Shown here: positions 10,261 to 17,451 of the stretch, piece by piece
Layout: each line of letters opens with the position of its first letter
How positions within the stretch are numbered: position 1 is the first letter of the stretch
Source of the DNA: an uncultured Bacteroidota bacterium
GTDB taxonomy: Bacteria; Bacteroidota; Bacteroidia; Chitinophagales; Chitinophagaceae
NCBI GenBank assembly: GCA_903853805.1
Contig: CAINUN010000050.1
Coordinates: 36,501 to 100,500 of the forward strand
Reading direction: 5' to 3'
Length of the DNA stretch: 64,000 bases
Program-made: the position numbers and the translations under genes
Notes under the pieces: generated by a model
The model's database searches: none
What the model saw: only the letters and a program-made list of their open reading frames with translations
What the model was told of the DNA's origin: nothing

Positions 10261-10986
10261 ATGGCAACCAAACTCTCTGTCAATATAAATAAGATTGCAA
10301 CTATTCGAAATAGTCGCGGAGGGAATAATCCGAATGTGTTGCAAGTTGCTATTGATTGCCAACGATTTGGAGCGGAGGGAATAACTGTTCATCCACGACC
10401 AGACGAGCGTCATATTCGTTATGCTGATGTGCGTGAAATCAAATCTATTATTACAACAGAATTCAACATTGAGGGGAATCCAATGGAAGACAAGTTCGTA
10501 GATTTAGTTCTTGAGGTGAAGCCGCATCAAGTTACGCTTGTTCCAGACTACCCTACACAACTTACTTCCAATCATGGTTGGGATACGATTGTGCAAGCAA
10601 AATATTTACAAGACATTATTTCAGTTTTTAAGAAAGACAGAATTAGGGTTTCTCTTTTTGTTGACCCCATAGAAAAAATGGTTTCCGCTGCTGCCGCTAC
10701 AGGAACTGACAGAGTGGAGCTTTATACAGAAGATTATGCTAGGCTTTTTCATCAAAACAAGTCTATGGCGATAAGAAACTATTTGTTGGCAGCACAAATT
10801 GCTAAAGAAAAGAACCTTGGCTTAAATGCGGGTCATGATTTGGACTTAAATAATTTGAAGTTTTTTGCCAATAACATTCCAAGTTTGTTGGAAGTTTCAA
10901 TTGGGCATGCCTTGATTAGTGATGCACTCTATTTTGGGTTAGAAAACACCATTCAGTTGTATAGACGTCAATTAATTGCTAGATAA
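10261..10986 (+). CDS. pdxJ: Pyridoxine 5'-phosphate synthase
   Basis: LSVNINKIATIRNSRGGNNPNVLQVAIDCQRFGAEGITVHPRPDERHI; GLNAGHDL near C-terminus. Confidence 0.96.
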   Translation: MATKLSVNINKIATIRNSRGGNNPNVLQVAIDCQRFGAEGITVHPRPDERHIRYADVREIKSIITTEFNIEGNPMEDKFVDLVLEVKPHQVTLVPDYPTQLTSNHGWDTIVQAKYLQDIISVFKKDRIRVSLFVDPIEKMVSAAAATGTDRVELYTEDYARLFHQNKSMAIRNYLLAAQIAKEKNLGLNAGHDLDLNNLKFFANNIPSLLEVSIGHALISDALYFGLENTIQLYRRQLIAR

Positions 10987-11134: not shown

Positions 11135-12964
11135 TTGCAGCCCATGAAGAAAAGTTTACTCACAACCCTTTTATTTGTTTTGGGATTTATCCTCCCTGAA
11201 CAAGTATTTGCGCAGCTGACTGCAAACTTTTCAGCAATACCAATTAGCGGATGTTCGCCTATTTTGGTTCAATTCACAGACTCATCGACAGGCAATCCAA
11301 CAAATTGGAATTGGAATCTTGGTAATGGTACTCTTTCCAACATTCAAAACCCTTCTACCGTTTACATCACACCGGGCATTTATACAGTTACATTAACTGT
11401 TTCAAATGGGACAAGCTCTGATACAAAAACCATCACTAATTATATCAATGTAATTCCTTCGCCTGAGGTTTATTTTACAGCAAGCGATTCATCAGTTACT
11501 TGTCCGCCAAAGACTGTACAATTTACCAACCAGACCATTTTAGGAACTGGTGGAGCAGCTTCCTATTTTTGGGATTTTGGAGATGGGGCAACATCAACTG
11601 TTCAAAACCCAACACACACTTATACCAATGGTGGAAACTATACGGTTACTCTTGCCGTGACTAATAGTGCTGGTTGTATGAAGCTGAAAACTAAAACTAA
11701 TTACATTCAAGTCTCTACTCCCCCTGATGCCAATTTCACTTCTGCCAACAATATTTCCTGTGTGGTGCCAAGTAGCGTCAGTTTTACAAATACTACGTTA
11801 GGCGGCACAACATATGATTGGGATTTTGGCTCTCTACCTAACTCTACCGCAATAAATCCAACTCACCTATATAATGCTGCAGGCAATTATACGGTTACGC
11901 TTATTGCCACTAATGCTTATGGGTGTAAAGATACCGTGGTCAAACCCAATTTCGTGAGCTTAGGCCCTATCTCTGTGAATTTCAACAAGAGTGCATCCTC
12001 CGTTTGCAAGGGTGTTCCAATTATTTTTACAAATACTACTACACCTGGGGTTGGAAGTTGTACTTGGAATTTTGGAGACGGAACTACGCCTATTGCTACA
12101 TTAAATGCTACCCATGCTTATTCTACAGCAGGAACATTCACAGTAAAACTAGTAGTAATTAACAGCGGATGCAAAGACTCATCAATGCAAACAGTTACTG
12201 TTTTCCCTTCCCCTTCAGCAGCGTTTTCAGCAACCCCAACAGCAGGTTGTACGGTTCCACAAACGGTTTCGTTTTCCAATAGTTCTACTGGAGCTGTTTC
12301 TTATATGTGGAGTTTTGGAACTGGTGCAACATCAGCATTAGTTAACCCAAGTTATACTTACACAATCCTTGGTTCTTATAATGTAGCATTAATTGCAACG
12401 TCAAACAATAACTGTAAGGATACGCTAACTCAAAATGCCTACATTAATTTTATCATACCAACCGTAACTGTTTCTGCTAACAATGTAAATGGGTGTCTTC
12501 CCGACACCGTAACCTTCACAGCTATATCGAACCCATCTATTTCCAGTTATAATTGGAACATGGGAAATAGTACAGTAATTCCAGGCGGTTCTACTATTAC
12601 ATACATCTATACTACTCCTGGAACGTATAATGTTACGGCCGGTTATTCCACTACTCCAAGTTGCAACTTTACAACTACTGCATTGCCAATAAACGTGGGT
12701 ACACCACCTTCACCGTCATTTACAGCAACACCTAATCCTGCATGTCCGGGAACAACAATTACGTTTATCAACACTAGTAATGCCCCTTCTGGTACAACCT
12801 ATCTATGGAATTTTGGAGATGGCGGAACAGATTCTACAATAAACACTTCTTATATTTATTGGAATCAAGGAACCTACCCGGTTACCTTAACAGCAACCTA
12901 TCAAGGTTGTAGTGCAACTTATTCGTTAAATATAACCATCACCCCCCCCTATCAAGTTTTTTAA
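11135..12964 (+). CDS. N-terminal part of multi-PKD-domain T9SS surface protein (frame broken at C8 tract)
   Basis: Signal peptide; repeated NPTHTYTNGGNYTVTLAVTNSAGC / WDFGDG PKD motifs; ORF ends right after C8 at 12942-12949. Confidence 0.85.
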   Translation: MQPMKKSLLTTLLFVLGFILPEQVFAQLTANFSAIPISGCSPILVQFTDSSTGNPTNWNWNLGNGTLSNIQNPSTVYITPGIYTVTLTVSNGTSSDTKTITNYINVIPSPEVYFTASDSSVTCPPKTVQFTNQTILGTGGAASYFWDFGDGATSTVQNPTHTYTNGGNYTVTLAVTNSAGCMKLKTKTNYIQVSTPPDANFTSANNISCVVPSSVSFTNTTLGGTTYDWDFGSLPNSTAINPTHLYNAAGNYTVTLIATNAYGCKDTVVKPNFVSLGPISVNFNKSASSVCKGVPIIFTNTTTPGVGSCTWNFGDGTTPIATLNATHAYSTAGTFTVKLVVINSGCKDSSMQTVTVFPSPSAAFSATPTAGCTVPQTVSFSNSSTGAVSYMWSFGTGATSALVNPSYTYTILGSYNVALIATSNNNCKDTLTQNAYINFIIPTVTVSANNVNGCLPDTVTFTAISNPSISSYNWNMGNSTVIPGGSTITYIYTTPGTYNVTAGYSTTPSCNFTTTALPINVGTPPSPSFTATPNPACPGTTITFINTSNAPSGTTYLWNFGDGGTDSTINTSYIYWNQGTYPVTLTATYQGCSATYSLNITITPPYQVF

Positions 12965-15900
12965 TTATCCCAGGAAATTGTGCCAATAAAAAAAACATAT
13001 CAACAATAAATAATTCAACCCCTGGCTGCACTTATTTATGGGATTTTGGGGACGGTTCTACTTCAACATTAATTAACCCAACTCACACATATACTAACTT
13101 TGGAAATTACACTGTAGTACTGTATGTAACAAATCCAGTTACAGGATGCGTGGCGCATGCACATCAAGATTTACACTTGTATCAATTAATAGGGGACTTT
13201 ATTGCCTCCGACACTTCAATGTGCAATAGTAACATTGACACTTTTGCAGCATTATTAAACATCAACATCATTGGCGCTATTCAAAGTTATACTTGGCATT
13301 TTGGCGATGGCACTTCAGTTACAGAAACAGATTCTTTAACTACCCACCATTACCTTTCAAACGGAATTTTTACAGTGACTTTGGTGTTGACCGACACTTT
13401 GGGGTGTAAGGATACAATTACGAAGGTCAATTACATTCATATTGGGGGTCCAATTGTAAACTTTGTTGGGGTTCCTACTCCTGGTTGTTCTCCTTTAACC
13501 GTTTTGTTTACCGATCAAACTATTTCACCTGATGGTTTTGCAGCAAGAAACTGGAAATTTGGTGATGGTGTTTTTTCCAACTCTAACACTGTAAATGTTT
13601 CACATACATACAATACTGGACAATATTCTGTAAGACTTATAGTAACCGATACTAAAGGTTGCAAAGACACGCTAATAAAATCAAATTACATTATAGCAAC
13701 AAAACCGAACGCAAGTTTTAATTCTCCTGACACCATTATTTGTAAAGGTCAAATAGCCCATTTTTACAGTAATAATTCTGGAAATTATACTTATCTGTGG
13801 CTGTTTGGAGATGGCGGCAATGCAACAACATTAAACCCTACACACGTTTATAACGCTGCAGGCAATTATACAGTCAGTTTTATTCTAACTAATTCAAGTG
13901 GTTGTAAAGACACTATGACCAAAACAGCTTATGTTCATGTGTCTTCTGTCAACCCAGGATTTACTTTGAGTGACACCTTCTCTACCTGCCCTCCTTTAAC
14001 TGTGTTTTTCTTAGATACAACTTCTGGCTCAACGACTCATAATTGGGTATTTGGAAATGGAAATGCTTCTTCTATCATTAATCCTGGTGCTATTTATACT
14101 TTACCAGGAAACTACAATGTGAAACTTGTTACCTCAAACGGCATATGCACAGATTCTGCCTTCAGAAATATTCACATTTTAGGTCCAATAGGCACCTTTT
14201 CATATGCTCCTCTGACTGGCTGTTATCCATTGACTGTAACATTCACAGCTAATACATTAAACACGGTGAAGATAATTTGGGACATGAGCAATGGGTTTAC
14301 CGATACATCAACTACAAATCAAAGCCCTTATAACTTTAACTATAATTATACTTATAACCAAGTTGGCAATTTTGTTCCAGTGTTTGTCTTATCGAATGGA
14401 CAAAATTGTACGGTTCCTTATTTTGGGCAAGACACCATAAAAGTTGGACATCTTGATGCTGATTTTTATTTCACGCCTATTCCTCAGTGCGAAAAAACAA
14501 TAGTACAATTTACTGATTCAATAACTAATTCTACTCTTACTATTGCCTCTCACTACTGGACATTTGGTGATGGAAACTCAAGCACAATTCACAATCCAAC
14601 TCATCTTTATTCTGCCGCCGGAACATTTACGGTCAAACTAGTGCTCGTAGCATCGAATGGATGTGCAGATACTATAACAAAACAAATAACAGTTCTACCC
14701 TCTCCCAACTTGACCATAAGTAACAACCTCATTTTTTGTCAAGGTCAATTTACCTCCGCTCCATTACAAGTAAGTGGTGCATTAACTTATTCATGGTCTC
14801 CTGCTGCTACCCTTTCCTGTAGCACTTGTACAAATCCTTATGCATTCCCTACTTCAACAACAACATACACAGTGGTTGGTACTGCAGCAAATGGTTGTAC
14901 AGATACTGCGCAGGTAACAATAGGTATTGACACAATACCTCAAATTATTGTATCAAATTCTCAAACAATTTGCTCCAATGATACCATTCAACTAAGCGCT
15001 GTTGGTGCAGCAAATTTTTCTTGGTCACCCTCTGTTGGGCTTTCCTGTTCTCTTTGCCCTAATCCTATTGCAAACCCTCAAACAACAGTTACTTATACTG
15101 TAATTGGCACTAATCTTTCAGGATGTGCTGACACTGATCATGTAACATTGACTGTAATTCCAGCCCCTAATATCAATGCTGGTCCTGATATTACTATTTG
15201 CAAATACGGTCAGGCACAACTTCATGCCACTGGATTACCCAACTTAACGTGGAATCCTTCATCAACATTATCTTGTCCTAACTGCTCTAACCCAATTGCA
15301 ACTCCACTTTTTACAACACCTTATGTGGTTAGCGGAGTTGATAATGCAGGTTGTAACGATTCAGATACAGTAGTTGTGTTTGTTAACCCACTACCGATTA
15401 TAAGTATAGGAAACGACACGGTATTATGTGCTGGGAAATCTTTACAATTGAACGCTAGCGGTGCTGTAACATACATATGGTCTCCACCGTTTTTCATTTC
15501 ATGTGTGAATTGTCCTAATCCAATTATTCAGCCAAATGACACAACAACCTATACCGTTATTGGAGTAGATTCAAATGGTTGTAAAGACACTGCTTCCATC
15601 GCCATCAATATTATTCCAAAATATCCAATGTCTTTTGGTGTTGATGACAGTATCTGTATTGGTGATTCTGTAACTCTTTTTGCAATTGGAGGCACTTCTT
15701 ATTTGTGGTCGCCAGCTGCTACATTAAACAACGATACAAGTAGTAGCCCAATAGCAACACCTTTAGAAACTTCAACTTATCAAGTGATTATTACCCAAGG
15801 AACTTGTTTTACTGATACTGGCAATGTTACGATTTCTGTTTTCCCATGGCCAACTGTAAATGCAGGGCCTGACCAAACAATTATCGCAGGTAACTCCATT

Positions 15901-16377
15901 AACTTATTCGCTACTAGTACTAATACTATTAGTTACGTCTGGGAACCATCAACAACATTAAGTTGTGCAACCTGTCAAAGCCCTGTAGCCAATCCAACTG
16001 AAACGACAACCTACATTGTAACAGCATATAACGAGTTAGGTTGTGAAGCAACAGACGAGGTTACCATTTTTTTGATTTGCGATAATGGACAGTTATTCCT
16101 TGCAAATACTTTTACGCCAAATGGTGACGGGCATAATGACCGATTTTATCCTCAAGGAAAAGGAATGCTCAACATTCTTCAGTTCTCTATTTATAATCGT
16201 TGGGGTGAAAAAGTGTTTGAAGCAAATAATATTCAACCAAATAACGACTTAATTGGATGGGATGGTACTTATAAAGGAGAAACTCTTACTCCAGATGTCT
16301 ATGTTTATGTTGTAAAAGCTGTCTGTTATACAGGCGATATCATAGAAGTAAAAGGAGATATTTCGTTGATTAGATAG
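12962..16377 (+). CDS. C-terminal part of the same PKD/Ig-like protein with T9SS type-B sorting domain
   Basis: Frame is open from just after the C8 tract and encodes CTYLWDFGDGSTSTLINPTHTYTNFGNYTVVLYVTN before the ORF-track start at 13150. Ends with FTPNGDGHNDRFYPQGKG...IYNRWGEKVFEANN...WDGTYKGETLTPDVYVYVVKA. Confidence 0.85.
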
Positions 16378-16386
16378 AAGGAAAGC

Positions 16387-17451
16387 ATGAAATTGTATAA
16401 AGGATTCATCATACTAATTATTGTCTACACACAATGTCTAAATGTTGATGGGCAAGATTTGCATTTCTCACAATTTTATGAAAATGCCATGATGCGCAAT
16501 CCTGGTTTAACAGGAATATTTAGTGGTGATTATAGGATGGGGGTAAACTATCGTAACCAGTGGAGTACGATCTCTGCACCCTATCAAACTTATCTTGCTT
16601 CAGTGGAAACAAGAATAGGAATTAGTGACGAAACCTTTGACTGTATCAGTATGGGTATTAATATCACACAAGACAAAGCAGGCTCAATTGATTTTGTAAG
16701 TACACAAGTTTACCCAACATTTTGTTACAACAAATCTATGCAAGACCCTCACCACTCCTATTTGTCTTCAGGTATTGCAGCTGGAATGATCCAAAGAGCA
16801 ATTGACCCATCAAAGATGACATTCTCTTCACAGTATTTTGGAGGGACATATAACCCAGGGTTCCCATCGGGTGAATTGATGAACCAAACCAAGCTAACCT
16901 ATTTCGACATAGGTGCTGGCATAAGTTTTAATAGTTCTCTAGGTGATCAGGGTAAATATAATTATTACATTGGAGCTGCTGCCTTTCATCTAAACAAACC
17001 AAAGGCGGCGTTTGGTAATGAAGCTTTTGTAAGAATGGACGTGAGGTATAATGGAAATCTGGGGTTGAGTTGTCAATTAAACAATGAATTCGGACTTATT
17101 TCACACTTCAATTTTTCAATACAAGGAAAATATAGAGAAACCATTGGCGGCGCCTTACTCTGTTATAGAAATTATGACGAGGCAAAGCAACTCATGTTTG
17201 TTTTGTTTGGTGGTGTTTATTATAGATTGAATGATGCCATCATCCCTACTTTCAAACTCGATTACCTAAACTATACTTTTACCGTTTCATATGACATCAA
17301 TTCTTCCAGCTTAAAAAATGTAAGCAAGGCACAGGGTGGTGTAGAAATTTCAGTATATAAACGAGGCTTTCTTTATAGAAAACCATGGACTGAAGATAAA
17401 ACACATTGCCCCCGTTTTGAACAAATGATTCTCCCAAACTACGAGCAATAA
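16387..17451 (+). CDS. Type IX secretion system membrane protein, PorP/SprF family
   Basis: DLHFSQFYENAMMRNPGLTGIFSGDYRMGVNYRNQWSTISAPYQTYLAS. Confidence 0.92.
   Translation: MKLYKGFIILIIVYTQCLNVDGQDLHFSQFYENAMMRNPGLTGIFSGDYRMGVNYRNQWSTISAPYQTYLASVETRIGISDETFDCISMGINITQDKAGSIDFVSTQVYPTFCYNKSMQDPHHSYLSSGIAAGMIQRAIDPSKMTFSSQYFGGTYNPGFPSGELMNQTKLTYFDIGAGISFNSSLGDQGKYNYYIGAAAFHLNKPKAAFGNEAFVRMDVRYNGNLGLSCQLNNEFGLISHFNFSIQGKYRETIGGALLCYRNYDEAKQLMFVLFGGVYYRLNDAIIPTFKLDYLNYTFTVSYDINSSSLKNVSKAQGGVEISVYKRGFLYRKPWTEDKTHCPRFEQMILPNYEQ

Follow-up and report, generated by a model that had tools for sequence, protein, structure and literature searches.

A giant T9SS type-B PKD gene split, most likely at a C8 run, in an uncultured Chitinophagaceae bacterium: a possible case of incidental slippage

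Introduction

T9SS type-B adhesins with PKD repeats (CHU_C / TIGR04131) and their PorP/SprF partners (SprB/SprF type) combine a signal peptide, tandem PKD domains and a C-terminal type-B domain with an adjoining PorP/SprF gene. All of these parts are present at one locus of the window (the whole stretch of 64,000 nucleotides analysed here), but at this locus the frame is broken after the seventh PKD domain, and the function of the surface protein, probably adhesive, is read from its domains only.

The break coincides with a C8 run, which recalls the poly-C and poly-G tracts of phase-variable surface genes in Campylobacter, Neisseria and Helicobacter. Here too a run of the requisite length (7–8 or more G/C) lies within the reading frame of a surface-protein gene, exactly at the frame break, and the frame as read is OFF. 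Work on Campylobacter sets the threshold for phase-variable tracts at C/G runs of at least 7 (PMC6321876), so that C8 is long enough for slippage. Unlike those tracts, however, the present run is unconserved, lies in mid-gene, is accompanied by no excess of tracts in the genome and is known from one assembled length. A third likeness is to the spurious or recent frameshift pseudogenes of draft genomes (PMC11017572), with which the locus shares a lone lesion of one base in a conserved gene that is intact elsewhere; it differs from them in being an isolated case in its assembly, where other homopolymers are in frame. In literature searches no account of T9SS cargo that phase-varies through a homopolymer came up; the closest case was the 'putative phase variation mechanism' described for FSD adhesins of Ornithobacterium hominis (PMC13183296).

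Results

Layout of the split locus

The locus consists of the following features, all on the + strand:

10261..10986, +, pdxJ (pyridoxal phosphate biosynthesis; PF03740, E=1.1e-89), the upstream neighbour, conserved in six relatives
11144..12964, +, 5' part of the PKD adhesin gene, with signal peptide and 7 PKD domains, 606 aa as read (PKD_4, E=7.3e-93)
12942..12949, +, C8 run CCCCCCCC, in which ACC CCC CCC encodes Thr-Pro-Pro of an inter-domain linker; the most likely frame-change site by residue preferences on both sides
12957..12962, +, T6 run, the sole other homopolymer in the frame overlap; a less likely site, since the fit to frame 0 begins upstream of it
12913..16377, +, 3' part of the PKD gene in the -1 frame, with 5 PKD domains (PKD_4, E=1.1e-63), Ig-like repeats (by eye) and a C-terminal T9SS type-B sorting domain
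16387..17451, +, PorP/SprF-family T9SS outer-membrane partner (PF11751, E=6.1e-35; TIGR03519, E=5.6e-46), the downstream neighbour, conserved in six relatives

The upstream frame closes at a TAA (12962-12964), and the downstream frame, which is -1 relative to it, stays open over 12913-16377, a span that includes WDFGDGSTSTLINPTHTYTNFGNYTVVLYVTN. The upstream ORF begins with a signal peptide (MKKSLLTTLLFVLGFILPEQVFAQ, judged by eye), and its likely start is ATG 11144 in preference to TTG 11135. Matches to the type-B sorting domain fall in the downstream part only, both for TIGR04131 (E=1.2e-12, 47.8 bits, cut-off 35) and for CHU_C (E=1e-14, 54.8 bits, cut-off 27). As read, no single polypeptide bears both the signal peptide and the sorting domain; the frameshift parts them. 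Joined, the two parts give a protein of ~1,743 aa with 12 PKD domains in total. The partner gene at 16387-17451 reaches 157.3 bits against TIGR03519 (cut-off 90.55), and to judge from the sequence the two ORFs are one gene paired with this predicted PorP/SprF partner.

Parts of this layout had been anticipated in an earlier note on the same DNA. It placed the C8 run at 12942-12949, an exact match to the sequence, and took the two ORFs for one PKD gene broken there, a view borne out by the intact syntenic form in related species; its claim that the upstream product lacks the type-B sorting domain likewise agrees with the confinement of both domain matches to the downstream part. The note was right that the upstream ORF ends soon after C8 and that one long protein is concerned, but its start at 11135 (TTG) gives way to ATG 11144 and its size of ~1,750 aa to ~1,743 aa.

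Position of the frame change

The two open frames overlap at 12913-12961, and because this overlap contains both C8 and T6 the sequence by itself leaves room for a lesion outside C8. The residues that relatives prefer at the same PKD domain border therefore served for comparison. Ahead of Pro-Pro, the six residues score +2.6 bits in frame 1 (LNITIT) and -16.4 in frame 0 (VKYNHH), whereas the three residues after it score -3.4 bits in frame 0 (LSS) and -7.7 in frame 1 (YQV). Since the 5' side fits frame 1 and the 3' side frame 0, the change most likely sits within C8 itself, as far as these residue scores can place it. The T6 run is disfavoured as the lesion site, frame 0 being preferred already upstream of it.

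Linkers of the Thr-Pro-Pro type recur elsewhere in the same protein with mixed codons (ACTCCCCCT, ACACCACCT); the choice of ACC-CCC-CCC at this one yields C8, so the run needs no special explanation. No second lesion was seen in the ~3.4 kb downstream of C8, which implies that the break is recent, reversible or artefactual.

The gene in relatives

The gene was compared within the window's genus, represented by 7 genomes from as many species, and within its family. In six relatives (G001, G002, G003, G006, G018 and G024) the order pdxJ, single PKD ORF, PorP/SprF is kept, and in each of them the PKD ORF is uninterrupted, at 1,516-2,876 aa. The junction region is also read in one frame in G004 and G037, so that in eight relatives the junction aligns in domain order within one open frame; G005 was left out at the junction because its contig begins downstream of it. 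The two-ORF form is kept by no relative, and no C or G run of at least 7 was found at the PKD locus in the nine relatives' loci. Protein identity to the relatives is ~43-51% in the upstream part and 40-47% over the aligned start of the downstream part, values that mark the relatives as separate species, not strains. A scan of genome contigs gave no same-species copy.

Homopolymers in the assembly

The genome is a 106-contig draft, and spurious frameshifts are known to occur in low-coverage assemblies (PMC11017572). Reliability at homopolymers was surveyed in a 483-kb sample of the genome, its contigs chosen partly for containing C/G runs, with frame changes located by a three-periodic Markov model. 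In control trials the model picked up 180 of 205 spiked one-base deletions as new frame changes; an initial flag rule (no start codon at all) recovered 31% of the deletions (64/205), and for that reason the count of homopolymers at frame changes was used instead. The sample contained 65 overlapping same-strand frame changes. Four of them had a homopolymer within the overlap, and only one, that of the PKD gene, combined a homopolymer with the lack of a start codon near the upstream stop. The PKD locus was thus the sole homopolymer-linked split of a conserved gene in the 483 kb, the intact ORFs of which contain 62 A/T runs of at least 8 and six C/G runs of at least 8. With one lesion found and the other runs in intact ORFs, the survey rejects the idea that the assembly is generally error-prone at homopolymers.

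C/G tracts across the genome

The 3.52 Mb genome holds 10 C/G runs of at least 8, where a composition model, scaled, predicts from ~5 (second-order Markov) to 14 (first-order). A C8 run by itself is not unusual, the count being about what chance gives, and enrichment of the genome in C/G tracts was not seen. Six of the 10 runs are genic and five of these six are in frame, at lengths of 8-10: in a propeller protein (G10), an enoyl-CoA hydratase (G9), a TonB-dependent receptor (G8), an S51 peptidase (G8) and an SBBP protein with a T9SS tail (G10). Several in-gene runs coincide with Gly-Gly motifs that are presumably conserved, e.g. RGG of the plug domain. The G10 of the SBBP/T9SS protein (L055:6006-6015, C103 of this genome, G000) lies in frame ~30 codons upstream of Por_Secre_tail, and slippage there would likewise remove that protein's sorting domain.

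A/T runs of at least 10 are strongly depleted in the 483-kb sample (3 seen, ~27-33 expected); C/G runs are not depleted. The genome encodes a complete MutS (877-aa frame, E=1e-79), given which the slippage rate should be lower.

G tracts in signal peptides of sister species

A genus-wide tract check brought out a set of at least 20 genes in G001, G002, G003, G005 and G006 in which a G8-G12 run lies inside the signal peptide, at the same position in each, after the charged n-region and before the hydrophobic part (for example MRKTLIKIAM-W-G-G-...-IMTTSANAQ|VF):

L125:4008, L126:4043, L127:2945, L136:3132, L141:12248, L142:4045, L175-L191 and L200, signal-peptide G-run genes of sister species G001, G002, G003, G005 and G006

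The two members tested, L142 and L127, are T9SS cargo with Por_Secre_tail. Run lengths vary among paralogs (8, 9, 10, 11, 12), and most of the genes are out of frame; the few in which the frame joins signal peptide to protein are L141:12248 and L188 (by script) and L183 and L178 (by hand). The window's genome yielded no member of this family beyond weak sorting-domain matches, and none with a second representative query. Their sequences suggest that these genes form a family of many copies whose secreted products are phase-variable, and they would be far better candidates for phase variation than C8.

The same design recurs in genes with a lipoprotein-type signal peptide in two species (L132:4013 in G003 and L180:526 in G006; lipobox ISMIGC / ISMMGC), where a G9 between n-region and h-region is out of frame in both. 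G runs are also found outside genes in G006 (G10 at L135:3334 and G18 at L135:4988), in near-identical intergenic repeats of the form AAAAGTAAT-Gn-TATTTCCAAATTAATTATGTTAAAATT, and a G15 in G003 (L174:15) stands in similar sequence; all three probably belong to a dispersed repeat whose G tract varies.

Discussion

The explanation favoured here, held with about even confidence, is a recent, incidental and in principle reversible slippage at C8 that split a giant T9SS type-B adhesin gene. The run may have arisen by chance, through the use of CCC codons in a Thr-Pro-Pro linker, and a one-base slip may have followed in this lineage or clone. In the sequence as it stands, Sec would export a 5' product devoid of the sorting domain, and the 3' part is without a signal peptide, a combination that would leave the adhesin off; were slippage the cause, this OFF state would in principle be reversible. 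The reading is drawn from assembled sequence, with one genome per species. Next in order comes an error of sequencing, assembly or consensus, then a selected switch, and then programmed recoding.

That the gene is whole and the length of C8 miscalled is the chief rival account, though a less probable one; the earlier note had rated a homopolymer sequencing error as likely as a switch. Errors typically strike homopolymers, the assembly is a draft in 106 contigs, the gene is uninterrupted in all relatives, and one consensus mistake in 3.5 Mb would look identical. However, the same assembly has C9 and C10 runs that leave the frame of other genes intact, and no further homopolymer-linked gene break appeared in 483 kb, so the assembly seems to have no general homopolymer problem, which lowers this account; frameshift artefacts are moreover fewest in Illumina assemblies (PMC11017572), although the platform of the present one may differ. 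It might instead be supposed, as the earlier note suggested, that poly-C slippage at an evolved contingency locus toggles surface display of the adhesin. A surface adhesin with C8 exactly at the frame break has the classical anatomy, and other T9SS cargo genes of the same genus contain G-tract loci for which phase variation seems genuine. Yet the run is missing from every ortholog, lies in mid-gene and not near the 5' end, and belongs to a genome with neither an excess of C/G runs nor signal-peptide G-tract genes, whose other in-gene tracts fall in Gly-rich motifs of unremarkable proteins, an enoyl-CoA hydratase among them. With no run of C7 or more in relatives, no tract excess and a run explained by Thr-Pro-Pro codons, the suggestion of an evolved switch finds no support and is unlikely; the frameshift is probably incidental and recent, and not the mark of a selected contingency locus. 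A broader version, in which the C8 adhesin is an outlier among genus-wide G/C-tract contingency loci that switch T9SS cargo mostly through signal-peptide slippage, and here through loss of the sorting domain, appears quite unlikely.

Recoding would require the ribosome or RNA polymerase to slip by -1 on the heptamer C CCC CCC (12943-12949), which would yield small amounts of full-length protein. Both the phase of this heptamer and the direction of the shift, -1, suit such an event, but relatives have a single frame without a slippery run, none retains the two-ORF form, and no downstream RNA structure was found (z=+1.07; 174 of 200 shuffles fold equally well or better). Programmed frameshifting is accordingly rejected for want of a conserved slippery site and a stimulatory structure, and recoding in either form, programmed or leaky, is highly improbable. 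Two separate adjacent genes, as the two ORFs would have it when read literally, are scarcely credible: all relatives have one ORF across the region, which is the ground for rejection, the first start codon of the downstream ORF comes 188 nt past the stop, and that ORF has no signal peptide and would start inside a PKD domain.

Should the length of C8 truly vary, the run would amount to an ON/OFF switch for T9SS surface display; should it not, the locus is a reminder that one base can split a giant repeat-rich adhesin in a draft genome. Phase variation of T9SS cargo could be tested directly on the signal-peptide G-tract genes of the sister species.
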